A stretch of 48,112 nucleotides of DNA, taken from assembly GCA_021809495.1 (NCBI GenBank), contig JAKAZI010000006.1:1-48112 (forward strand). The letters are read 5' to 3'. The notes beneath the pieces are model-generated. The model searched no databases. It was not told the DNA's origin and was given only the letters and a program-made list of their open reading frames with translations. Each line of letters begins with the position of its first letter. The first letter of the stretch is position 1. A program made the position numbers and the translations under genes. Shown here piece by piece: positions 2,231-14,331 of the stretch. This stretch comes from Actinomycetes bacterium. GTDB lineage: Bacteria; Actinomycetota; Acidimicrobiia; Acidimicrobiales; RAAP-2.

Positions 2231-2430
2231 GGTTCGCCTTGACCAACTGAACCAAGGGGCCCAGCGGTGCTTGCTCGCCGTCCGACTTCCCAGATGATGC
2301 CTCATCTGAGTCCTCGGTTCCGACCCAGGGCCCTCATCACAGAGTCGTGATGGCTGTGCGGGTGACGATCGGCTCTTCCCGCGTGCTTCGCGGTGCAGAT
2401 CCCCGTGGGATCAGGCGGTCGAGCGAAGCG
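2231..2430 (-). ncRNA. Candidate omega RNA (guide RNA) of TnpB
   Basis: TnpB nucleases use an RNA made from the 3' end of their own gene plus the element's right end, with the guide lying just outside the element. The roughly 180 bases after the tnpB stop contain two perfect short stems (2335-2352 and 2291-2308) and a weaker one (2231-2235 with 2249-2253). That is compatible with a structured guide RNA. The limits and the guide are not determined; this rests on position and structure only. Confidence 0.3.
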
Positions 2431-3808
2431 CAACGCGCGTTGGTCCCAACGGTGTCACGGTCGAAGGCTTGTTGGGTTGCCAACGGGCCAGGTTGATGGC
2501 CGCGTTGAGGTCGCGGTCGAGCACCAGCCCGCAGGTCCCACAGGAGTAGGTCCGCGTCGACAGGTCGAGGTCGTTCTTGAGCCCGCCGCAGCCCGAGCAC
2601 GTCTTGGAACTCGGAAAGAACCTGTCCGCCACCCGCACTTCGACCCCGTGCCAGCGGGCCTTGTAGAGGATCTGACGCGATAGCTCTCCCATCGCGGCGT
2701 CCGAGATGGACCTCGCCAGGTGTCGGTTCCTCACCATCCCCGCCACGTTGAGGTCCTCGATCACGAGGACCTGTGCTCGGTCCACCAGGGTCTTCGAGTC
2801 TTGGTGGACGAGATGTCGCCGCGCGTTGGCGACCTTTCGATGTCGTTTGGCGAGTCGGGCCCTCGCTCGTTGGCGGCCTTTGGACCCCGGTGTGGTTCTG
2901 GCCAGGGCCTGGTTGGCCGCCTTGAGCGCGGCTTGCGCTTGCTTCAGTGTTGTCACCCCCTCGAAGCTCTCGAAGGGAACACCGTTGGCGTCCGCGGCGA
3001 CAGCAAGGGAGGTAATCCCTCGGTCGACGCCGACGGGAACGGCGTGACGGTTGGAACGGCTGCGCTCGGCCTGGTGCAGCTCGGCGGCCACGCCGGTCAG
3101 TGACACCGTCCAACGACCCGCGCGCTGGGTCAGCGTCGCGGAGTAGATGTGGAAGCGCCCGGCATCGATCATGCGGCGGACCTTGCGGGTGGGGCCGAAG
3201 AGTTTCACCGGTCCGAACTTGGGCAGTCGCAGGTGCGAAGGATCGCTGAAGCGGATGGGCTGGCTGGTGGGCGGACGACCTGGCGTCGCGCGGTTGCGCA
3301 ATCGGAAGCTCGGGGTCACCTTGTCCTTCGCCTGGAAGCGCGGGAACCCGACGGGTGTTCCGCTGCGCTCCCCACGTCGTGACGCCGAGAAGTTCTCGAG
3401 GGCCCGGGCCGCGTCCACGCTGGCGCACTCGAAGACGTCGTTGGGCAGTTCGTGGCGCCAGGCCAGGCCGCGACTGCCATCTTCGTTGACCGGTGAGTCA
3501 TCAGACTCCCCGTTCTTCCAGGCGTTGAACTCGTTGATGAAGGAGAAGGCCGCCCAGGACAGCGATGAGGTTGCAGGTTCGCCAGATTCACCGCTCTCCG
3601 AGAGAGCATCTCGCTCGGCCGACCTAGCGTCCAGGTTGGCCATGACCCGTGCCAAGTGGTGGTTCAGTGTGAAACGACGAGCGCCGGCGCACTTGGCGAG
3701 GAGAATCCTCTGCTCGACGTTCGGGTCGAGGGCGAACTGGAACGTGACGGCCCGCGAAAGTGCCTGACCGGTGTGAGAGATGAGCGGTGTTGTCGGTCTT
3801 TGGGCCAT
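2411..3808 (-). CDS. tnpB: TnpB, RNA-guided nuclease (IS605 OrfB family)
   Basis: 465 residues. The RuvC-like catalytic residues are all in place: D262 in VGVDRGI, E351 in LVIEDLNVAG, and D431/D433 in LDRDLNAAINLA. A zinc finger lies between motifs II and III, with C404 and C407 in TCSGCG and C423 and C426 in SCGTCG. The N-terminal helix-turn-helix region has the family's FALDPNVEQ and CAGARRFTLNHHL. TnpB cuts DNA beside a short element-specific motif, guided by omega RNA, and favours retention of its element. The frame is open with no truncation, so it may be active. The start is uncertain: homologues often begin near residue 20 (AVTFQFALDP), and no Shine-Dalgarno is obvious upstream of ATG 3808. 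It is unrelated to its neighbours. Confidence 0.9.
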   Translation of the reverse strand: MAQRPTTPLISHTGQALSRAVTFQFALDPNVEQRILLAKCAGARRFTLNHHLARVMANLDARSAERDALSESGESGEPATSSLSWAAFSFINEFNAWKNGESDDSPVNEDGSRGLAWRHELPNDVFECASVDAARALENFSASRRGERSGTPVGFPRFQAKDKVTPSFRLRNRATPGRPPTSQPIRFSDPSHLRLPKFGPVKLFGPTRKVRRMIDAGRFHIYSATLTQRAGRWTVSLTGVAAELHQAERSRSNRHAVPVGVDRGITSLAVAADANGVPFESFEGVTTLKQAQAALKAANQALARTTPGSKGRQRARARLAKRHRKVANARRHLVHQDSKTLVDRAQVLVIEDLNVAGMVRNRHLARSISDAAMGELSRQILYKARWHGVEVRVADRFFPSSKTCSGCGGLKNDLDLSTRTYSCGTCGLVLDRDLNAAINLARWQPNKPSTVTPLGPTRVALRSTA

Positions 3809-4729: not shown

Positions 4730-5695
4730 AAGTAGAACGGCACTTGTGGATTGGATGCCGCAGTCCTTTGCGCGGCGAGAAGCCCCGTAGTTCATGCGAT
4801 TCGTTCCGATGCGGCGCAGAACCGCCGCCGACTCAGCACAGCGCTCGAAGGACCTCACTGATAGAGGCAATGTGCAACCACCCTGTGGCCGAGTCCACGG
4901 TGTTCTCGAAGCTGCGCGCCAGGCGTCGCCGTCGTACGAAGTGGCCGTGGGCGACCTCGACCCGCCAGGCGTGATGGATGGGTCGAAAGACTTTGGCACC
5001 GTGCTCGTTGCGCGGTGGCTGGTCCCATCCAACCCGGCGAACCTCGTAGTTGAACCTGGCCGACAGCCGCGTGGCGGAAGACGGCGCCGTGCCACGGTCC
5101 ATGAGCACGAGTTCCAGTCGTTCGTCAGCGACGCAACGGGCGAGGTCGTCGAGAATCTGTTCGACGGCGCTCGCTTCGGACGTTGAAGCCGGGACGACTC
5201 TCACGCAGAGCGGCAGCCCAGTGACGTCCACGCAGACGATGCGCTTGGCGCCGTTGGTCCGGCCGAAGTGTCCGCCCTGGTTATGGAAGGTGGAGCCCCC
5301 GTTCGAGGCGCCTCGTGTCAAGTGGGTGTCGATTACCACCATCGAAGGCAGGGGTTCCTTGCGGCCGAGGGCGATCCGTGACGAAGCGTGCAGCGCTGTG
5401 AGAACCCTGGTCCACGTTCCGTTCCTTGACCAACGGCGAAACTGGGACCAAACCCGAGTCCACGGACCGAACTCGTTTGGCAGGTATCTCCACTGACACC
5501 CAGTGTGCGAGATGTAGAGCATCGCATCGACGACGTGGCGCAAGTCATCACCGTGTTTCGGCCCTCGTTTGGAGGGAACCAGCAGGAGGGGTTCCAGCAC
5601 GTTCCACTGGGAGTCGGTCAGATCGCTTGAATAGATCACGACTTGACGGTGACGATTGCGGCTCATGGCGCACTCGCCAAATAGAACACAGCCTC
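4724..5695 (-). mobile_element. IS5-family insertion sequence; ends only weakly supported
   Basis: One transposase gene fills most of about 970 bp, a normal size for IS5-family elements. Reading inward, both putative ends begin GGCTG (4725-4729 on plus; 5689-5693 on minus) but then diverge, so inverted repeats are poor or eroded. No target duplication was identified. The right end falls directly beside the stop codon of the small membrane gene at 5696, suggesting insertion at or into that gene's 3' end. Confidence 0.5.
4833..5666 (-). CDS. IS5-family DDE transposase
   Basis: 277 residues, ATG start, one open frame. The N-terminal domain (about 12-80) has the family's LTDSQWNVLEPLL, KRGPKHGDDLRHVVDAML and GCQWRYLPNEFGPW. 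Candidate DDE residues are D in VVIDTHLTRG, D in LVLMDRGTAPS and E in WRVEVAHGHF. In relatives the last block usually reads W-V-V-E-R-T-F-A-W-L, followed by a CRRL motif; here RTFAWL is replaced while E and the RRRRLARSFE stretch remain. It catalyses cut-and-paste movement of its element. Whether it is still active is unclear given the altered block and weak terminal repeats. Confidence 0.88.
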   Translation of the reverse strand: MSRNRHRQVVIYSSDLTDSQWNVLEPLLLVPSKRGPKHGDDLRHVVDAMLYISHTGCQWRYLPNEFGPWTRVWSQFRRWSRNGTWTRVLTALHASSRIALGRKEPLPSMVVIDTHLTRGASNGGSTFHNQGGHFGRTNGAKRIVCVDVTGLPLCVRVVPASTSEASAVEQILDDLARCVADERLELVLMDRGTAPSSATRLSARFNYEVRRVGWDQPPRNEHGAKVFRPIHHAWRVEVAHGHFVRRRRLARSFENTVDSATGWLHIASISEVLRALC

Positions 5696-6107: not shown

Positions 6108-6791
6108 ATGTCGATTCGCGGAAGATTAGCCATCGTAGTCGTGCTGTTCCTGGTCGCGGTCGGCCTCATCGTGTGGAGCGTTGCCTCGTTCCTCACTCCG
6201 GGTACGCCAGGCGGCGTGATGAACTTCACCAACACCCAAGCGGCGGGTCAGCCGGTCGACCTCACGGTGCAGAGCGTCGGGGCGATTGGGTTCGGGCCGC
6301 ACCCGACCTGGGTCTCGTACCTCGTTAAGGACCCCCACACCCACCGGTGGGTCCAGGACACCACCTGGCAGCTGCCGGCCCACACCGTCGTGCACATGAC
6401 GGTTCTGCAGTACGACACCGGCAGTCCGCTGCGCAATCAACAGTGGGGACAGGTCGTCGGTACGCTAACCGGCACCGCCAACCTGAACGGCCACCCGTTC
6501 AGCGTCTACGACTCCAATACGGGTAACGGGGTTGGACACACCTTCGCCGTTCCCGCCCTCGGCTTGAGTGTGCCGATGATTGGGGTGGCCGCCAACGCCC
6601 AGGTCTGCGGTTCGAGTCCGTGCCAGACCAGCTCACCGCACAACACGATCACGTTCAGCTTCAAGACTCCCGGAGCGGGCAGTTACTCCTGGCAGTGCTT
6701 CGTCCCGTGCGGACTCGGCTATCTGTACGGCAATGGAGGACCGATGGCGACCCAGAACTACATGGGCGGATTCCTGGAAGTGGTGCGATAA
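6108..6791 (+). CDS. Membrane-anchored cupredoxin-like protein, AcoP-like by position
   Basis: 227 residues: an uncleaved N-terminal anchor (about 7-29), then an extracytoplasmic beta-rich domain. Candidate copper ligands are H144 (GHTFAVP), C197 and C201 (WQCFVPCG), and M213 or M219. The block C-x3-C-G-x2-Y resembles the CuA loop of oxidase subunit II (C-x3-C-G-x2-H-x2-M) with His replaced by Tyr, so a normal CuA or type 1 site is incomplete. C167 and C172 may form a disulphide. It lies directly before coxB, as acoP does in the Acidithiobacillus ferrooxidans rus operon, where AcoP is a cupredoxin associated with the aa3 oxidase. Inferred role: electron donor or accessory subunit. GAGGAG lies 6 bases before the ATG. 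Confidence 0.75.
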   Translation: MSIRGRLAIVVVLFLVAVGLIVWSVASFLTPGTPGGVMNFTNTQAAGQPVDLTVQSVGAIGFGPHPTWVSYLVKDPHTHRWVQDTTWQLPAHTVVHMTVLQYDTGSPLRNQQWGQVVGTLTGTANLNGHPFSVYDSNTGNGVGHTFAVPALGLSVPMIGVAANAQVCGSSPCQTSSPHNTITFSFKTPGAGSYSWQCFVPCGLGYLYGNGGPMATQNYMGGFLEVVR

Positions 6792-6814
6792 CTATGACAG
6801 CGGAGAATGCAGCC

Positions 6815-7783
6815 ATGAATGAGACTCATCACCTGCGGCGCATGACCACGATCTGGATCGTGCTCTCGGTTGCGGCGGACCTACTGTTCTGGTTCCTCGT
6901 GGGTCCGCACGTGCCACCGGGGCGAATGACCGACATGGCGACGTCGAACCAGTTCGACTTCAACGTCTTGTTCGTCATCGCGATACCGGTACTCATCGGC
7001 GTGTGGATCTACCTCGCCTACGCGATCGCGGTCTGGAGTGCGAAGCGGGGAGGTCCCGAACCGGTGGGCGGGGAGGCCGCACGAACGAATCGCACCGCAC
7101 AGGTTGCGTGGATCACGATCACCTCAGTCGTCGTGATCTTCTTGGCCGGTTTCGGTACCGTCGAGCTGGTGGTCAACCACGGCTCGGGTGGTGGGGAGGG
7201 GCCCAACCCAGTGTGGTCGCCCGCGGGCGCGATCAAGGCCGAGACCGCGGCCCTGGCCGGGACGGGGACCTGGTCGCCCAACAGCAACCAGGTCCTCCCG
7301 GTCCAGGTCATCGCCCAGCAGTGGAAGTTCACCTACCGGTACCCGACCTTCGGCGGATTCGAGACGTCACAGCTGGTCTTGCCCGTGAATACGACGATCG
7401 CCTTTAACGTGACGTCCCTCGACGTCATCCACAGTTTCTGGGCCTACCAACTGAGCGTGAAGGCCGACGCCAACCCCCAGATCAACGACGTGGCCTACGC
7501 CACGACGGACCAGACCGGTCAGTTCACCGTTCGCTGCAGCGAGCTCTGTGGAATCTGGCACGGCTCGATGTACAACTACGGCAACGTGGTCTCCCAGCAG
7601 AAGTTCATGCAGTGGGCGCAGTCCACGGAAGCGGCGAACGCCGCCAACACGAAGTTCCTGCCGCCGTTCGCGTGGACCTACGTGCCAGACGCCAATGGCG
7701 CCTCGGGCGGGTACTACCCTGACGGCACGGCGACGCCCTACAGCTCGGTGGAGACCTATGGCGCAAAGCAGCCGGCCTCGTGA
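6815..7783 (+). CDS. coxB: Cytochrome c oxidase subunit II (CuA subunit)
   Basis: 322 residues. All CuA ligands are present: H206 (VIHSFW), C241, E243, C245, H249 and M252 (CSELCGIWHGSM). It accepts electrons at CuA and passes them to CoxA. Three hydrophobic segments (about 13-31, 49-74, 96-120) precede the cupredoxin domain, where most family members have two. A tail of about 60 residues after the domain is rich in A, G, P and Y. ATG 6815 is preferred because GGAG (6802-6805) lies 9 bases upstream; ATG 6794, only 2 bases after the previous stop, is in frame and would add seven residues. There is no fused cytochrome c domain, so the donor must be separate. Confidence 0.95.
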   Translation: MNETHHLRRMTTIWIVLSVAADLLFWFLVGPHVPPGRMTDMATSNQFDFNVLFVIAIPVLIGVWIYLAYAIAVWSAKRGGPEPVGGEAARTNRTAQVAWITITSVVVIFLAGFGTVELVVNHGSGGGEGPNPVWSPAGAIKAETAALAGTGTWSPNSNQVLPVQVIAQQWKFTYRYPTFGGFETSQLVLPVNTTIAFNVTSLDVIHSFWAYQLSVKADANPQINDVAYATTDQTGQFTVRCSELCGIWHGSMYNYGNVVSQQKFMQWAQSTEAANAANTKFLPPFAWTYVPDANGASGGYYPDGTATPYSSVETYGAKQPAS

Positions 7784-7838: not shown

Positions 7839-9785
7839 ATGACGGAACGTCCTTTGGCGACGACCGGTGATACGTCGACGGCGTCGCGCGTGCCATGGAC
7901 ACAGCGTCCGGGCTGGATGAGTCAACACCTCGGTACGGCGATCGTCCTCGGGGTACTCGGCTACCTCTTCGGACACTGGTTGGGCAACTCGATCTCGAGC
8001 GGCTACGCCTACATCGCCAACAGTGGCCAAAACTCGATCGCTGACGCACTGGCGCTGATCTTCGGTGTCGTGGGTTGGTTGCTCGGTATCGGGGCACTCA
8101 ACTATCCGCTGGCGAAGTTGACCGGACGCCAGCCGGAGAAAGAAACCGAGATTGAGCACTGGTCCAAGTACTTCCGCTACAGCACCAATCACAAGACGGT
8201 CGGGCTGCAGTACGTGGTCGGCGTCTTGTTGTTCATGTTCACCGGTGGCCTGCTCGCCATGGCGATTCGCACCGAATTACTGAATCCCACGACGCACTAC
8301 TTCAGCGCTGACACGTACATCAAGATCGTCAGCGAGCACGGCACGATCATGATGATGATGGCCACGTCCATCGTCGTGGGCCCGCTCGGTAACTATCTCG
8401 TTCCGCTCATGATCGGTTCGCGTCGGATGGCCTTCCCGCGCATCGAGGCGTTCAGCTTCTGGATCTTCGTGGCGGGCTACATGGTGATCTTCTCGGCGTT
8501 GCCCTACGGGGGCTTCCCGACGGGCTGGACTGGCTACGCGCCGCTGCAGACCCAGGCGGGCCCGGGGATGGTGTCCTACCTCTTCGGATTCGCCGTCATC
8601 GGCATGGGCATGATGGCGGCGGGCTTTAACATCGCGGTGACGATCATCAACTATCGCGCACCCGGTATGACGTGGAGCCGCTTGCCGATCTTCGTGTGGT
8701 CGATCTTGGCGACCGCGGCCCTGCTCACCCTGGCGACGCCAACGCTCTTCGCAGCGGGCCTGTTCGGGCTTCTCGACAAGACCGCCCAGACGGCGTTCTA
8801 CGTGACCGAGCACGGCGGTAGTTCATACCTGTGGGAGAACCTCTTCTGGTTCTTCGGACACCCCGAGGTCTACATCATGGCGCTGCCGGGCTTTGGCATC
8901 GTCGGAGAGATACTGCCGGTGTTCACGCGCAAACCGCTCTTCGCGTACAAGGTGGGTGCCGCGGGGATGATCGGTGTGTCCTTGCTGTCCTTCTTCGTCT
9001 GGCAGCACCACCTCTTCCAGAGCGGTATCAACCCGGACATGCGCCCCTTGTTCATGCTCACGACCGAGCTGATCTCGATCCCGACCGGATTCATCTACCT
9101 CGTCGGGATGGGGACGCTCTATAAAGCGAAGATCAGATTCGAGATACCGATGCTGTTCGCGATGGCGCTCTATTTCAACTTCCTGATCGGTGGCGTCACC
9201 GGCGTGTTCCTGTCCGACGTTCCGGTGAACGTGACGGTCCACGGTGGGTTCTTCGTGCTGTCGCACTTCCACTACACCATCATGGGCGGACTGCTCTTTG
9301 CCTTCATGGCCGGCCTGTACTACTGGCTGCCCAAGATGACCGGGCGGATGATGAACAAGAAGATCGGGCTGTGGCACTTCTGGACGATGTTCATCTTCTT
9401 TAACCTGACCTTCTTCCCGATGTTCATCATTGGTTTGCTCGGTCAGCCGCGGCGGGTGTTCACGTACGCGAAGAACCTCCAGGGCCTGAACGACTTCTCG
9501 TCGGTGAGCGCGTTCCTGCTGGGCTTCTCGTTCCTCATCTTCTTCTTCAACCTGGTGTGGTCGCTCTACATCAGCCCACAGAAGGCGCCCGCCAATCCGT
9601 GGGAATCGTTGGGCTTGGAGTGGCAGACGGCTAACCCGGTACCCGAGTACAACTTCGAACGGATTCCGGTGATCCTCACCGACCCGTATCACTACAGCGA
9701 GGCGAACGCGCCGGCGGTTGCCGACTTGGGCGAAGAGGAACTCGTACCGGTCGTGTCGTCCCATGACGGCAACGGCGCGGCGTAG
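7839..9785 (+). CDS. coxA: Cytochrome c oxidase subunit I with N-terminal extension
   Basis: 648 residues. Redox ligands are intact: H167 (SEHGTIMM, haem a), H341 and cross-linked Y345 in FGHPEVY, H390/H391 (WQHHLF, CuB), H476 (haem a3) and H478 (haem a) in SHFHYT. GHPEV retains the A1-type glutamate (E343). Proton-channel positions differ: D-channel Asp of G-A-x-D-MAFPR is R196 (GSRRMAFPR), the following Asn is E203, and the K-channel Lys of PTGIK is I419 (PTGFIY). About 110 residues with two predicted membrane helices (about 32-48, 68-88) precede the normal start region YSTNHKTVG. It reduces oxygen to water in the membrane. It is co-transcribed with coxB and coxC. Confidence 0.96.
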   Translation: MTERPLATTGDTSTASRVPWTQRPGWMSQHLGTAIVLGVLGYLFGHWLGNSISSGYAYIANSGQNSIADALALIFGVVGWLLGIGALNYPLAKLTGRQPEKETEIEHWSKYFRYSTNHKTVGLQYVVGVLLFMFTGGLLAMAIRTELLNPTTHYFSADTYIKIVSEHGTIMMMMATSIVVGPLGNYLVPLMIGSRRMAFPRIEAFSFWIFVAGYMVIFSALPYGGFPTGWTGYAPLQTQAGPGMVSYLFGFAVIGMGMMAAGFNIAVTIINYRAPGMTWSRLPIFVWSILATAALLTLATPTLFAAGLFGLLDKTAQTAFYVTEHGGSSYLWENLFWFFGHPEVYIMALPGFGIVGEILPVFTRKPLFAYKVGAAGMIGVSLLSFFVWQHHLFQSGINPDMRPLFMLTTELISIPTGFIYLVGMGTLYKAKIRFEIPMLFAMALYFNFLIGGVTGVFLSDVPVNVTVHGGFFVLSHFHYTIMGGLLFAFMAGLYYWLPKMTGRMMNKKIGLWHFWTMFIFFNLTFFPMFIIGLLGQPRRVFTYAKNLQGLNDFSSVSAFLLGFSFLIFFFNLVWSLYISPQKAPANPWESLGLEWQTANPVPEYNFERIPVILTDPYHYSEANAPAVADLGEEELVPVVSSHDGNGAA

Positions 9786-9801: not shown

Positions 9802-10458
9802 ATGAGTGGAACTATGAGACAGTCAAACGGGTACACCTCAACCCCCGAAGAGGACGAGTTCGAACTTCGCGCGCACATCGGTTCGGTGTGGTCGGGCGGG
9901 CGACTCTTCATCGGGATGTACACCTTCTTGCTGGCGTCGCTCGCGTTCGCCTACTTCTACCTGCGTTCGAGCAACAACGGTCTGCTGTGGCGCCCTAACC
10001 ACGTCACGGCGCCGACCGCCTACGGCTGGACAATCGTCTCCCTGACGGTCCTGGGCGCCCTGATGGCGATCTTCGGACAACGGCGACTGCGCAAGGGCGC
10101 AGTCGTGGACTGGCAGGTCGCGGGCTGGACCGCACTCTTCGCCGCAGTCCTGGCGCTGGTGCTGCAGATCTGGGAGCTGACGGCGTTGTCGTTCTATCCC
10201 GGTTCGAGTGGATACGCATCGACCTTCATTGGCTTCGTGGTGATCAACATCGCGACGCTCGTCGTTGGCGCGTACTGGCTCGAGACGGCCCTCGCGCGCT
10301 CGTTGCGACTCCATCGTGAGATCGGCGGTGACCGGCCCGAGCTCTCCGCACACGCGACGGCTCAGTCGTTCCGCGCGAACATTTCGGCGATGACGTATTT
10401 CTGGGGCTTCATTGGCCTGAGCGGGGCGTTGTTCTTTGCCATGTTCTATCTGCTGTAA
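9802..10458 (+). CDS. coxC: Cytochrome c oxidase subunit III
   Basis: 218 residues with five hydrophobic segments, typical of the shorter bacterial subunit III. The family region IWELTALSFYPGSSGYAS carries the conserved membrane Glu, and the last segment ends MTYFWGFIGLSGALFFAMFY. Subunit III stabilises the catalytic core and holds lipid. ATG 9802 has GGAG 8-12 bases upstream; ATG 9814 is an alternative. It starts 16 bases after coxA and is followed by a tiny membrane gene. Confidence 0.92.
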   Translation: MSGTMRQSNGYTSTPEEDEFELRAHIGSVWSGGRLFIGMYTFLLASLAFAYFYLRSSNNGLLWRPNHVTAPTAYGWTIVSLTVLGALMAIFGQRRLRKGAVVDWQVAGWTALFAAVLALVLQIWELTALSFYPGSSGYASTFIGFVVINIATLVVGAYWLETALARSLRLHREIGGDRPELSAHATAQSFRANISAMTYFWGFIGLSGALFFAMFYLL

Positions 10459-10487: not shown

Positions 10488-10601
10488 GTGCAGGGAGTTG
10501 ACATCTATATCGGACCGCAGGTCCAGACGATGGTGGTCTTACTCGGCGTGTTGTTCGGGGTGCTCATCTGGGGATTTTTCCAGCGCCACCCGTCGGAGTA
10601 G
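10488..10601 (+). CDS. 37-residue single-pass membrane peptide, probable small oxidase subunit
   Basis: GTG start with a near-perfect Shine-Dalgarno GAGGAGGT (10473-10480) 7 bases upstream. The product is MQGVDIYIGPQVQTMVVLLG followed by VLFGVLIWGFFQRHPSE: one strong membrane helix (about 13-31) with a basic, then acidic end. It sits 29 bases after coxC and 13 before a CtaG-like gene. Small single-helix subunits (subunit IV or CcoQ-like) are common in haem-copper oxidases, so an accessory subunit is likely; the sequence itself does not prove it. The strong ribosome-binding site argues that it is real. Confidence 0.7.
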   Translation: MQGVDIYIGPQVQTMVVLLGVLFGVLIWGFFQRHPSE

Positions 10602-10614
10602 CGGAGCGCCGGTA

Positions 10615-11397
10615 ATGGTGAAGCACCGGAGGTTGCGCGATGCGCTGGCGGTGCTGGCGATCGCGTGGTGGTTCCTGTGGCTGATTCCGCCCCTCGGATC
10701 GTGGGCTCGACGGTACGAGTTCGTTCAGACCCTGCAGTTCGACTCGTTCGCCCTCGTGGCGCCGGCGCTCTTCGTGGCCGGGGCACCGTGGCGTCGTTTG
10801 GGCGTTCAACGATGGCCGATCTGGTCGCACTCGACCACGGCCACCGCGTTCGCTCGGGGCCCGGACCCCGACCAGCCCCCCGTGGCGACGGCCGGCATCA
10901 ACCACGGCCGCTCGATTGCGGGGGCCGGTCTGTTCCTCGTACTCGCCATTGCGTGGCGGGTGCCGCCCGTAGTTGACGCCCTGGTCAGGCACGGGTGGTT
11001 GACGGCTGTGGAGTTCCTCACGCTCGGGGTCAGTGGCGTCGTGCTCTTTCGCGACCTGATCGAGTCGCCGCCGTTGACGCCGAGGGCCAGTCGACCGTAC
11101 CGGATTGGGATCTCCGCGGTCGTGATGTGGGTGATCTGGATCATCGCCTACATGAACGGTATGTCTCGCTCGTCGTGGTACCACGCGTTCATCCACGTGT
11201 CGGGTAGGGGGCCGTCGCTCGCGGCCGACCAGCAGTTGAGCGTTGGGTCGATCTGGATCGTCTCGGCGGCGGTGTTCTTACCGATCGTCTTTTGGAACTT
11301 GGTGCAGTGGCTCCAATCCGAGGAGGATCCCGACGCCGAACTGTACCGTTTAGTGCGGCGCGAACGGGCCCGCGGTTTCTTCGGTTCGAAGAATTAG
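10615..11397 (+). CDS. Divergent CtaG-like oxidase assembly protein
   Basis: 260 residues with about six membrane segments (roughly 8-28, 43-57, 101-118, 130-146, 165-182, 208-230). The C-terminal third (MSRSSWYHAFIHVSG, then ADQQLSVGSIWIVSAAVFLP) parallels SWYAIYAHVPG and ADQQIGAAILW in the clearer CtaG protein at 13408-14331, which is the main evidence. CtaG-family proteins help insert copper (CuB) into subunit I. The central His-rich CtaG block is poorly kept, so it may have diverged in function. ATG 10615 and GTG 10618 are both possible. Its stop touches the stop of the opposing gene with no spacer. Confidence 0.7.
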   Translation: MVKHRRLRDALAVLAIAWWFLWLIPPLGSWARRYEFVQTLQFDSFALVAPALFVAGAPWRRLGVQRWPIWSHSTTATAFARGPDPDQPPVATAGINHGRSIAGAGLFLVLAIAWRVPPVVDALVRHGWLTAVEFLTLGVSGVVLFRDLIESPPLTPRASRPYRIGISAVVMWVIWIIAYMNGMSRSSWYHAFIHVSGRGPSLAADQQLSVGSIWIVSAAVFLPIVFWNLVQWLQSEEDPDAELYRLVRRERARGFFGSKN

Positions 11398-12075
11398 TTA
11401 GGTCCCGAGCAGCGCGGTGAGCCGGGGCACATTGACGGAGGTCAACGTGACGCCGACGAGGTGGCTCGCTTCGCTAACCAGTTGGTTGATGCGCGCGCGG
11501 TCCTGGGCCAGGTAGCGCTGACGAATGGTCAGGTCGTGCACCCACTTCTGGTTGGTTGGCTGTTGGACCGCCATGTAGATGTCGTAGATGGCGTCCTTGG
11601 CGTCATTGGTGGTCCAGGTGATGACGACGGAGTACATGGCGTCGATCTTCTTGCCGGCCGCGGTGTCGATGGGCTGGATGTTGTTCGTGAGGTCGTAGAT
11701 CGGCCCGCTGGCCAGGGTGCAGGAAGTCTGATCCTGGAGCAAGAGGTTTGGGGCCTGTTTGAGATTCTCAGCGCTCAAGGTCCCCGATCGGAGCCGGTTG
11801 TAGATGAGGAAACTCTCGTGCAGCGCGTAGGTGCACGGAGCGATGTCGTTGTTGATGAGCGTGATGGTGCCGTTTTGCTGAGCCGCGTCTTCACTCTTAG
11901 ACACGGCGTGGGGTAGGTCCGAGACGACCGACACGGCGATCGCGACGAGTACGACCAGCGAGATCAGGAACCAGGGACGCCGGTACCAGACGGCCTTGAC
12001 GGTCATCAACGACGAGGCCGGCATCGAAGCGGGGTCGTACGAACTCGCTCGGACCTCGCTCTCGGGTGTGCTCAC
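11398..12075 (-). CDS. Unknown single-pass exported protein linked to Sco
   Basis: 225 residues: a short cytoplasmic N-terminus, one membrane helix (about 34-53), then a soluble extracytoplasmic domain with two cysteines, C81 (DIAPCTYALHES) and C119 (QDQTSCTLASG). I do not recognise the domain. Its GTG start overlaps the stop of the Sco gene by four bases, so the two are translationally coupled. A role in copper delivery or oxidase assembly is the natural guess from context only. The C-terminal 50 residues look helical (RQRYLAQDRARINQLVSEAS). Confidence 0.75.
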   Translation of the reverse strand: MSTPESEVRASSYDPASMPASSLMTVKAVWYRRPWFLISLVVLVAIAVSVVSDLPHAVSKSEDAAQQNGTITLINNDIAPCTYALHESFLIYNRLRSGTLSAENLKQAPNLLLQDQTSCTLASGPIYDLTNNIQPIDTAAGKKIDAMYSVVITWTTNDAKDAIYDIYMAVQQPTNQKWVHDLTIRQRYLAQDRARINQLVSEASHLVGVTLTSVNVPRLTALLGT

Positions 12076-12896
12076 GGCAACAGACTACCGGCGACCTCTG
12101 CGATTCCAGCGGCGAACGCGTTACGTGATTCGGTGTCGAGCGAGAAGACCCCGCGGCGACTTTCGTTGGCGAACGGCGTCGCCTGGGCGCGCAGAGCGCC
12201 ACTGGCGCTGATGAAGTACAGCACGTCGTTGTGGAGCGTCGGCGCCGGGGGCCGACCGACGCGAACCTGCACGCCGTAGTGCGTCCAGACGGCGTTCAAC
12301 TCGTTCAGCGTGCCGGTCAGGAACACGACGTTCGCCCGGTTGACGAGTCCGGTTCGTCGCAATGCCGCTGGCTCGGCGAGGGCTGCGGCGTGGGTGGGGT
12401 CGGTATTGACGATCGCGAACTCCACGTGATCGGCCCTCGTGCCGAGCAGGCTGATCGAGGCTCGCAGTTCGGATCCGAGCACCGGGCAGATGTCATTGCA
12501 CGTCTCGTTGTAGAAGGCGAGGACGACGATTCGCCCGCGTTGGGCGGCGAGTGACCAGGTTGATCCGCGCTGGTCGGTCAGCGTGAAGAGGGGAGCCGTC
12601 CGACGGGTGAGCGGCCTCAGGCCGAGGATCGAACGAGGCGTTATCGGTAACGTCGACGGCGTCGTTGCGAGCGGCGCGATGGTCGCGGGTACCTGTCCTG
12701 GTGTTCCCACGACGCGTTCGAGCACGACGCCGCCGAGACCGAGTACGACGAAGACCACTACTACCAACAGGATGAACTTGGTCGGCACGGGGGCGCGCCC
12801 GGCGCGAAAGGCCGCGCGTCGTTCGTCCTCGGAGATCGTCGTCTTGGGCGGGGCTTCGCCATCGCCCTCGGGCGGCAACTCGGGGCGACTGGTCAT
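12072..12896 (-). CDS. Sco1/SenC-family copper chaperone, membrane-anchored
   Basis: 274 residues. An N-terminal helix (about 40-59) anchors an extracytoplasmic thioredoxin-fold domain with the Sco copper site: C133 and C137 in ETCNDICP and H222 in LHNDVLYFI. A long P/T-rich linker (about 66-90) separates anchor and domain. Sco proteins metallate or reduce the CuA site of CoxB. A TAGAGT -10 lies 8 bases before the ATG, suggesting leaderless expression, and the gene heads a two-gene minus-strand operon with the unknown exported protein. It is the second Sco domain in this block. Confidence 0.93.
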   Translation of the reverse strand: MTSRPELPPEGDGEAPPKTTISEDERRAAFRAGRAPVPTKFILLVVVVFVVLGLGGVVLERVVGTPGQVPATIAPLATTPSTLPITPRSILGLRPLTRRTAPLFTLTDQRGSTWSLAAQRGRIVVLAFYNETCNDICPVLGSELRASISLLGTRADHVEFAIVNTDPTHAAALAEPAALRRTGLVNRANVVFLTGTLNELNAVWTHYGVQVRVGRPPAPTLHNDVLYFISASGALRAQATPFANESRRGVFSLDTESRNAFAAGIAEVAGSLLP

Positions 12897-12904
12897 CGCA
12901 CCGC

Positions 12905-12910
12905 ACTCTA
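12905..12910 (-). promoter_or_regulatory. -10 element for the Sco operon
   Basis: TAGAGT on the minus strand, 8 bases before ATG 12896, with no Shine-Dalgarno in between. Part of the recurring TANNNT-start-codon pattern in this window. Confidence 0.45.
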
Positions 12911-12955
12911 TCGAAACCCAAAGATTTCTCAGCGTCAGGCGTCCACGACGAGGGA

Positions 12956-12961
12956 TACAGT
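12956..12961 (+). promoter_or_regulatory. -10 element for the gene at 12968
   Basis: TACAGT, exactly 6 bases before ATG 12968 and without a Shine-Dalgarno. This favours ATG 12968 over the in-frame GTG 12965 and suggests a leaderless transcript running into ctaG. Confidence 0.5.
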
Positions 12962-12967
12962 CTGGTG

Positions 12968-13411
12968 ATGAGTGGTGCGAAGGGTGAGGGCGGGCCCGCG
13001 CGGACGTCGCACCGGCTGAGCGGGGCCGATGCGTGGCGAACGCACGTTGTGTTGTTGCTCGGGCTGGCCTTCTGCGCTGTGGCGTTCTGGTTCGAGCTCG
13101 GACGCGCCGAAGGTGGCAACACCCTGAGTTGGGCCTACGTGTTCGAGTGGCCACTGCTGGCGGTCTTCGCCGTGTACATGTGGTGGAAGGTTCTCCACGA
13201 GGACGCAACGCCACGACGACGGCGAACTCGCGAGCCGGGTCTTGCGCCGCAGTACGACGGGATGCTGAAGGCGTGGCAGGCGCACCAGGTCGAACTCGCC
13301 GAGGCGGAGCGGCGCGACGTCGAAGGTGCCGGGCACGCCGATGGCGCGAGCGCGGACCAGTCACCCGCAGAACGGCCCCCGACGGGGACGGATCAGTCGG
13401 TGGGGTCGTGA
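12968..13411 (+). CDS. Small membrane protein, paralogue of the gene at 5696
   Basis: 147 residues. Two membrane segments (TWRTHVVLLLGLAFCAVAFW-like, about 24-44, and YVFEWPLLAVFAVYMWWKVL) flank the motif GRAEGGNTLSWAYVFEWP, almost identical to the minus-strand paralogue at 5696-6031. A long polar tail rich in R, E, A and P follows. Function unknown. Its stop overlaps the GTG of the next ctaG gene by four bases, so it is coupled to oxidase assembly. Having copies at both edges of the coxBAC region suggests a structural or regulatory tie to the oxidase. Confidence 0.75.
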   Translation: MSGAKGEGGPARTSHRLSGADAWRTHVVLLLGLAFCAVAFWFELGRAEGGNTLSWAYVFEWPLLAVFAVYMWWKVLHEDATPRRRRTREPGLAPQYDGMLKAWQAHQVELAEAERRDVEGAGHADGASADQSPAERPPTGTDQSVGS

Positions 13412-14331
13412 ACTACGTCCTAAACCACTGGACCTTCGATCCCATGGTGGTCGTGCTCGCCCTGACGGTACTCGCCCACGAAACGGGACTGCGCCGGTTG
13501 GCGAGCCACTCGAGCGCCGCCAACCGCCAGCGTCGGCGCCGCCGGTCGTATCGGTTCTACGCGGGCATGGTGCTGCTGGCGCTTGCGATCGCCTCACCCC
13601 TTGACTTTTGGGCGTCTCGCTACTTCTTCGTCCACATGATCGAACACATCGTCATCGCCTTCTTCGTGCCCATGCTCATCGTCATGGGAGCGCCGTGGGT
13701 TCCGTTGCTCTTCGTGCTGCGCGTAAACACCCGGCGCCGCGTCGGCCGGTTTCTCTTTCTTCGTCGTTCCACGGGCTGGCTGCGATCCGTCGGCCGCTTC
13801 GTGCGCAACCCGTGGTTCGCCCTGGTTGCGATGAACGTCGTCATGTTCGCGTGGCACGTCCCGGCTCTCTTCGACCTCGCCGAGCGCAACCAGTTCGTCC
13901 ACGTCTGGCTGATGCACGGGAGTTTCGTCGTGGCCGGCACGTTGTTCTGGCTCCAGATCTACCCGTCGGCACCGATGAAACCGGCGAAGGGTGCCGTGTG
14001 GAAGATCGGCGCCGTGCTCGTTACCAATGGGCTGATGACGATGCTCGCAATTTCGATGAGCATCCTGACAACCGTGAGCTGGTACGCGATCTACGCTCAC
14101 GTGCCCGGTGTGACCCTCTCGCCGTTCGCGGACCAACAGATCGGCGCGGCGATCCTCTGGATCTGTGGTGACTTCTGGGCGCTGCCGACCCTGGCCATCG
14201 TCATCCGTCGAGCCATCGAGACCGAGGGGTCCATGGGCAGCGTCATCGATCGTCTGACGGGACGGTCCTCGACCCTCGATCTCACGGTCTCGACGCCGGC
14301 GCCGACGTCGCGCGTCGACGGTATCCGATAG
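13408..14331 (+). CDS. ctaG: CtaG-family cytochrome c oxidase assembly protein
   Basis: 307 residues with about seven membrane helices. Family hallmarks: HMIEHIVIAFFVPMLIVMGA (His-rich helix, H76, H80), AWHVPALFDLAE (149-159), HVWLMHGSFVVAGTLFW, and SWYAIYAHVPG. These match the caa3_CtaG family, which supports CuB insertion into subunit I and often sits beside cox genes in Gram-positive bacteria. GTG start overlaps the preceding stop (GTGA). It ends 15 bases before the pyrR promoter and closes the oxidase block. Confidence 0.9.
   Translation: MNYVLNHWTFDPMVVVLALTVLAHETGLRRLASHSSAANRQRRRRRSYRFYAGMVLLALAIASPLDFWASRYFFVHMIEHIVIAFFVPMLIVMGAPWVPLLFVLRVNTRRRVGRFLFLRRSTGWLRSVGRFVRNPWFALVAMNVVMFAWHVPALFDLAERNQFVHVWLMHGSFVVAGTLFWLQIYPSAPMKPAKGAVWKIGAVLVTNGLMTMLAISMSILTTVSWYAIYAHVPGVTLSPFADQQIGAAILWICGDFWALPTLAIVIRRAIETEGSMGSVIDRLTGRSSTLDLTVSTPAPTSRVDGIR

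Follow-up and report, generated by a model that had tools for sequence, protein, structure and literature searches.

A clade of A-family haem-copper oxidases with altered D- and K-channel inlets and seemingly relocated acids

The cox cluster and its subunit I

The window, by which the whole analysed stretch of 48,112 nt is meant (contig JAKAZI010000006.1 of assembly GCA_021809495.1, positions 1 to 48,112, forward strand), carries an oxidase gene cluster in the order cupredoxin-like ORF, coxB, coxA, coxC-like ORF and ctaG (table 1). A scan of public genomes found 172 relatives, of which the best 80 were used. In tblastn searches of these best 80 of 172 loci, the cupredoxin-like gene and coxB were detected upstream of coxA in 77/80 and 78/80, and the coxC-like ORF and ctaG downstream in 79/80 and 77/80, respectively. 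In two of its 77 loci (L078 and L080) ctaG lies farther from coxA, and the cluster genes missed in some loci are misses at contig ends.

The complete CuA ligand set is present in 91/91 CoxB rows, which marks the enzyme as a cytochrome c oxidase rather than a quinol oxidase, and the electron donor should therefore be cytochrome c or a cupredoxin. The cupredoxin-like ORF keeps H144, C197, C201, M213 and M219 in 92/92 rows and C167/C172 in 88 of 92, and it had no match in Pfam or PDB searches. It is possible that its product is the electron donor for the oxidase, and perhaps it represents a new copper protein that supplies it. The coxC-like ORF has no Pfam match at E 0.01, and subunit III is thus also divergent. 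A TnpB-type RNA-guided endonuclease (2411-3808, minus strand) and an IS4/5-type transposase (4833-5666, minus strand), the latter not found in the loci searched, adjoin the cluster, which is also flanked by two SCO1/SenC-type ORFs and a second CtaG (460-2196, plus; 12072-13364, minus; 13033-14331, plus).

CoxA matches the COX1 chains of the PDB with an E-value of about 1e-118 (HMMER). Its best NCBIfam model is TIGR02891 (CtaD_CoxA), with 554.1 bits against a cut-off of 670.75; it stays below the curated cut-offs of all NCBIfam models matched, and the best scores belong to A-family models. The AlphaFold2 model (pLDDT 75.1 overall, pTM 0.81) predicts a fold like that of COX1 structures. All metal ligands had been described as retained by the initial annotation, together with HPEVY and its Glu, and this is borne out: the six His ligands (H167, H341, H390, H391, H476 and H478), E343 and Y345 are present in 93/93 rows of the variant type described below (3 of these rows are duplicates).

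The six His together with the cross-link Tyr define CoxA as a haem-copper oxygen reductase, and the Tyr in the HPEVY motif of helix VI, present in 92/92, is that of the A type in the sense of Sousa et al. 2011. The channel sets of this type are incomplete. The A1-type D-channel set comprises, in P. denitrificans numbering, D124, N131, N113, N199, Y35, S134, S193 and E278 (PMC3084760); N113, N199, Y35, S134 and E278 are kept in CoxA, and D124, N131 and S193 have become R196, E203 and M258. In the A-type K-channel set (Sousa et al. 2011) T351 and Y280 are kept, and K354 and S291 are replaced by I419 and G356. CoxA is not of the B type (ba3), since most D-channel residues and E343 are present and its best scores are to A-family models. 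In a tree that held no B- or C-family row, the variant clade lies inside a group of A-type rows. NO reductases are characterized by the motif HHx(Arom)(Arom)x17E and have no cross-link Tyr (PMC3084760), whereas CoxA has Ile in position 412, Gln in position 394 and Y345. E410 was considered as an NO-reductase-like Glu and rejected, because the motif would need the Glu at 412.

With the A1-type enzymes of the Pereira/Sousa scheme (such as those of R. sphaeroides and P. denitrificans and mycobacterial aa3) CoxA has in common the metal ligands, the Glu and Tyr of HPEVY, the CuA subunit II and the fold. Unlike them, it is without the D-channel mouth Asp and without the K-channel Lys and Ser, its acids are located elsewhere, and it has two extra N-terminal helices. 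Two extra N-terminal helices and a caa3-type CtaG nearby are also characteristic of the 2TM COX1 of iron oxidisers and others (PMC8239418).

Table 1. Features of the cox cluster and of CoxA in the window. Residue counts refer to the 92 variant sequences unless stated otherwise; Rs and Pd give R. sphaeroides and P. denitrificans numbering.
Feature	Positions	Strand	Observation
Cupredoxin-like ORF	6108-6791	+	Cluster head; named by motif only
coxB, subunit II	6794-7783	+	TIGR02866 102.9 bits, under its cut-off
Q103 of CoxB at K-channel inlet Glu site	7100-7102	+	Q 79, E 8 of 91 variant rows
coxA, subunit I of an A-family haem-copper oxidase (648 aa)	7839-9785	+	PF00115 423.8 bits
N-terminal extension, two extra predicted helices (residues 31-53, 66-84)	7929-8090	+	AlphaFold2 model
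Y125, D-channel Tyr (Rs Y33), kept	8211-8213	+	92/92
N185, D-channel Asn (Rs N121), kept	8391-8393	+	N 89, G 3
R196 at D-channel Asp site (Rs D132, Pd D124)	8424-8426	+	R 84, K 7, Q 1
E203 at gate Asn site (Rs N139, Pd N131); candidate for the relocated inlet acid	8445-8447	+	E 90, Q 2
M258 at D-channel Ser site (Rs S201)	8610-8612	+	M 89, L 3
N264, D-channel Asn (Rs N207), kept	8628-8630	+	N 90, D 2 (L125, L126)
E343 (Rs E286) and Y345 (cross-link Tyr, Rs Y288) in the HPEVY motif, kept	8865-8873	+	92/92 each
G356 at K-channel Ser site (Rs S299)	8904-8906	+	G 46, A 31, F 4, M 4, L 4, S 2
E410 and S413 at the Rs M353 and A356 sites; covary as substitutes for the K-channel Lys	9066-9077	+	92/92
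T416, K-channel Thr (Rs T359), kept	9084-9086	+	92/92
I419 at K-channel Lys site (Rs K362, Pd K354)	9093-9095	+	I 83, L 5, V 3, T 1
P-side changes D460, N464 (Rs D407 site), G469 (Mg-site Asp, Rs D412)	9216-9245	+	Changes among the 92 variants: see text
coxC-like ORF	9802-10458	+	Named from position in cluster
ctaG assembly factor	10498-11397	+	PF09678 56.5 bits; start codon unsure

Substitutions and covariation in the D- and K-channels

Two sets of sequences were compared. The 83-row alignment consists of the window, the best 80 of the 172 public loci, a copy of the window (L002) and the paralogue from its own genome (L001). The set of 182 rows combines the public set with samples of the order, phylum and class, fetched regions and named records, after removal of window copies and duplicates, and 92 of these 182 non-redundant rows are of the variant type. 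A plasmid search with the protein query gave 952 records, every one below 60% identity.

The initial annotation had placed R196 at the D-channel Asp, E203 at the conserved Asn and I419 at the K-channel Lys, and gapless alignments to solved oxidases agree with all three assignments. In the HMMER alignments with PDB oxidases, GSRRMAFPRIEAFSFW of CoxA aligns without a gap with the GAPDVAFPRLNAFSFW-type sequence, and PTGFIYL pairs with PTGIKFF; the spacing of the motifs is equal in further alignments, including that with E. coli CyoB from the K-12 record. The two objections that had been foreseen, a small indel that shifts the Asp or the Lys and sequence errors at 8420-8445 or 9085-9100, are ruled out by these alignments, which have no gap in either motif, and by the 92 concordant non-redundant sequences. 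The codons are CGG for R196 (8424), GAG for E203 (8445) and E410 (9066), and ATC for I419 (9093). Among the 83 rows, position 196 is R in 76, K in 5, Q in 1 and D in 1; position 203 is E in 82 and N in 1; position 419 is I in 78, L in 3, V in 1 and K in 1, and the sole D196, N203 and K419 all belong to the canonical paralogue L001. The gene is under purifying selection, with a rough dN/dS of 0.07-0.11 between the coxA of the window and six relatives, which rules out a decaying gene. Taken together with the intact ligands and the conserved cluster, this leaves a negligible chance that sequencing error, misassembly or decay lies behind the changes.

In the D-channel, the residues in positions 196 and 203 change as a pair. 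Over the 182 rows the pairs are D-N in 89, R-E in 82, K-E in 7, Q-E in 1, R-Q in 2 and N-N in 1. Both R-Q rows (L125 and L126) are the variants with D264, that is, they have the acid at the N207 site and not at the N139 site. An acid in position 185, 203 or 264 is present in 92/92 variants, and a deeper D-channel carboxylate is found in all of them, at the N139 site in 90 and at the N207 site in two. In their serine zone the variants mostly have G257/M258. E203 had been counted as a second loss beside that of the Asp. The gate Asn is indeed absent, but E203 is read here as a replacement acid in the same channel because of the covariation of positions 196, 203 and 264 in the 182 rows; judged from the alignment, the D-channel acid looks moved rather than deleted. 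As the variants form one clade, the covariation on the D side amounts to about two independent cases, the clade and row L185, plus the shift in L125 and L126. L185, the single N-N row, is the ctaD of Rhizobium etli plasmid pRetMIM1a, which has E264, V185 at the N121 site and Q419 at the K362 site; it appears as a second, independent acid shift in which the K-channel Lys has been lost as well.

In the K-channel, the Ser site drifts (entropy percentile 94), and the subunit II inlet Glu, which is E in 35/40 canonical rows, is mostly replaced in the variants. Going by its residues, the classical K-channel inlet is dismantled, and the Thr and the Tyr remain. E410 together with S413 occurs in 111/182 rows and Lys419 in 65/182, with an overlap of 0 and neither in six rows. 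Within the aligned rows, both E203 and E410 are acids that covary with the canonical losses. E410, S413 and T416 follow one another along helix VIII with the spacing i, i+3 and i+6, possibly lining up as a single stripe.

Relationships and companion oxidases

A maximum-likelihood tree was calculated from 77 rows with the trait columns left out and E. coli CyoB as the root. The variants form one clade (support 100/100), which lies in a Lys-less group, and its sister, joined to it with support 100/99, is a set of D-intact, Lys-less oxidases. These Actinomycetota sisters (L130-L133 and L178-L180) share with the variants E410, S413 and the absence of the Lys, but keep D196 and N203; L130-L133 carry the cupredoxin-like gene as well, with 31-40% identity. 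The tree requires at least two changes of E410, three of the Lys and two of the D132 acid, counts that cannot separate gain from loss. The D-channel change has one origin in the variant clade, within the Lys-less group, and under the CyoB root the tree is most simply explained by loss of the Lys and a subsequent shift of the acid in the variant line.

K- and D-channel variants have been mapped previously on archaeal COX1, and repeated loss of the K-channel has been argued (Degli Esposti et al. 2021, PMC8239418), so the loss of the Lys as such was already known. The main-text parts of PMC8239418 on 2TM COX1 hold no description of the R/E pair. Nor was a description of a natural oxidase with this pair found in the literature searched, supplements and most subscription papers lying outside its reach. 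That the K-channel Lys and the Glu of helix VIII exclude each other, with two changes counted on the tree, provides a second lead, concerning the replacement of the K-channel.

The variant oxidase is accompanied by other oxidases. In the order sample, 13/13 variant genomes have at least one further COX1 match, and where this was read, in 12 of the 13 (all but G308), the D, N and K residues are present in 12/12. Three genomes (G335, G344 and G538) each hold a variant and a D-intact, Lys-less enzyme, and two genomes of the window's own genus (G055 and G063) have the D-intact sister enzyme and no variant match. A partial COX1 match with 51% identity lies in G275 (C37:4-1062).

Proton uptake and its possible gearing

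The R. sphaeroides double mutant D132N/N139D, in which the acid is shifted from the 132 site to the 139 site, reportedly regains pumping. By analogy, the natural variant proteins resemble this double-mutant state; they differ from it in having Arg or Lys and not Asn at 132, Glu and not Asp at 139, and no K-channel Lys. Introduced singly, N139D and N207D each uncouple pumping, the former at a slightly raised activity (PMC6934443). In D132N proton uptake is blocked and the activity is inhibited by the electrical gradient, and hydrophobic mutants of Ser200/201 retain pumping (PMC4321873).

With the canonical D- and K-inlets gone, proton uptake must run through other residues, as the initial annotation had anticipated. 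The reading that we prefer, with a probability of roughly 0.6, is that of an A-family haem-copper oxidase with one rebuilt inlet, leading from E203 to E343. Cytoplasmic protons would pass R196 and then bind E203, from where water would carry them by way of N185 and N264 as far as E343, the residue that would supply the oxygen chemistry plus any pumping. E410 and S413, aligned with T416 on helix VIII, could serve as a local proton store near Y345 and so replace the lost Lys. A changed pumping stoichiometry would be our guess.

What argues for the rebuilt inlet is the retention of the channel around the proposed new acid: Y125 in 92, N185 in 89, S206 in 90, N264 in 90 (Asp in two more) and E343 in 92 of the 92 variants. 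The covariation of positions 196, 203 and 264, the acid present in every variant, the drift of the K-channel Ser site and the mostly lost inlet Glu of subunit II point the same way, as do the mutual exclusion of E410 with S413 and the Lys (111 against 65 rows, E410 having changed twice on the tree), the activity of the N139D oxidase (PMC6934443) and the pumping that persists in hydrophobic Ser200/201 mutants (PMC4321873). Set against it are the altered serine zone (G257/M258), the changes of the P-side D407 and of the Mg-site Asp, the K-inlet Glu that is still present in 8/91 CoxB, and the uncoupling of pumping by N139D and N207D singly in R. sphaeroides (PMC6934443). A further counterargument comes from the B-family ba3 oxidase of T. 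thermophilus, which like CoxA combines Arg at the D132 site with the absence of a Lys from the K362 site (PMC12901375), and whose D-pathway is called inactive, as is that of cbb3, the listed D-pathway residues being replaced in both (Table 2 of PMC12901375). However, ba3 has lost the HPEVY Glu along with the rest of the D-channel residues, whereas in CoxA they are kept, and the fact that the remaining D-channel residues are held, unlike in ba3 and cbb3, argues that the channel still conducts. The same parallel with ba3, with its single K-type path and the Arg at the D132 site (PMC12901375), would suit an enzyme in which a salt bridge between R196 and E203 closes the D-channel and all protons take a rebuilt K-type path through E410, S413, T416 and Y345, pumping being reduced to about half; the presence of E410, S413 and T416 in 92/92 is consistent with this. 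Still, the other D-channel residues and E343 would be needless in a dead channel, the lower K-channel is hydrophobic or drifting (G356 and I419) and the subunit II Glu is mostly lost, so that we regard closure of the D-channel as unlikely, though with an appreciable chance.

The P side of the protein is modified too. D460 is new in 92/92 variants, the D407 site is N in 76 and D in 16 of 92, and the Mg-site Asp has become G in 92/92. Therefore the exit may differ as well, and full pumping cannot be assumed. It could even be that the altered inlet and exit together reflect a lost pump, perhaps resulting from a steep pH gradient, and that the enzyme takes up chemical protons only. Such a loss would agree with the Asn at the D407 site, the Gly at the Mg site and the uncoupling effect of N139D alone (PMC6934443), but E343 and the upper D-channel are held and the D407 site is still Asp in 16 variants, which makes it rather improbable. 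Pumping of protons through the H-pathway instead is very improbable. On the one hand, R144 (Rs R52) is kept in 92/92, and a 2026 paper argues that this pathway is conserved across all families (PMC12901375). On the other hand, of the three H-pathway sites compared, the Y414 site is F in 90/92 and the S425 site M in 91/92. The latter site tells little about the H-pathway, since it is non-Ser in canonical rows as well (F in 49/71, and non-Ser in all 69 rows with a letter listed). As a substitute the H-pathway is not supported.

In wider terms, the rebuilt inlet leads to a proposal that we offer tentatively, at somewhat below even odds. The variants would be a natural A-family clade in which both textbook inlets are shut and carboxylates have been relocated, in the one channel to the N139 or N207 site, with a positive charge in front of it, and in the other to a Glu on helix VIII that stands in for the K-channel Lys, and this would amount to a lasting change of pump gear, like that of the uncoupling and recoupling double mutant, beside a retained canonical oxidase. 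As a natural counterpart of classic laboratory mutants, the clade could help to show how the proton pump is geared. The clade with the moved acid, its close relatives with the acid unmoved and the genomes with both provide matched pairs for studying what position 132 does, as well as the stoichiometry and its dependence on pH.

In A-type oxidases the mouth of the D-channel is on the cytoplasmic side, and acidophiles hold their cytoplasm near neutral pH. The proposal of the initial annotation that the substitutions fit life at very low external pH is plausible, though weakly supported. As to habitat, palsa, bog or fen appears in the record title of 24/80 relatives (the best 80 of 172), and three loci (L023, L009 and L021) bear the names MAG 8, 9 and 10, which PMC8357290 gives to RAAP-2 genomes recovered from acid mine drainage. 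However, the inlet faces the cytoplasm, D132 is kept in close relatives and a canonical oxidase is present in 12/12 variant genomes read, so that low external pH would explain the change in part at best. Nor is a strict link with acid habitats supported, considering also the D-intact sisters in G055 and G063, the coexistence of both types in G335, G344 and G538, and the R. etli ctaD. A better reason than low external pH would be a lowered gear in the face of a steep pH gradient.

Two further positions next to the metal ligands separate the variants from the canonical rows. The residue before the haem a His, E166 (8334-8336), is Glu in 90/93 variant rows and Met in 40/41 canonical rows, and the residue before the CuB His pair, Q389 (9003-9005), is Gln in 93/93 variant rows and Ala or Val in 41/41 canonical rows.
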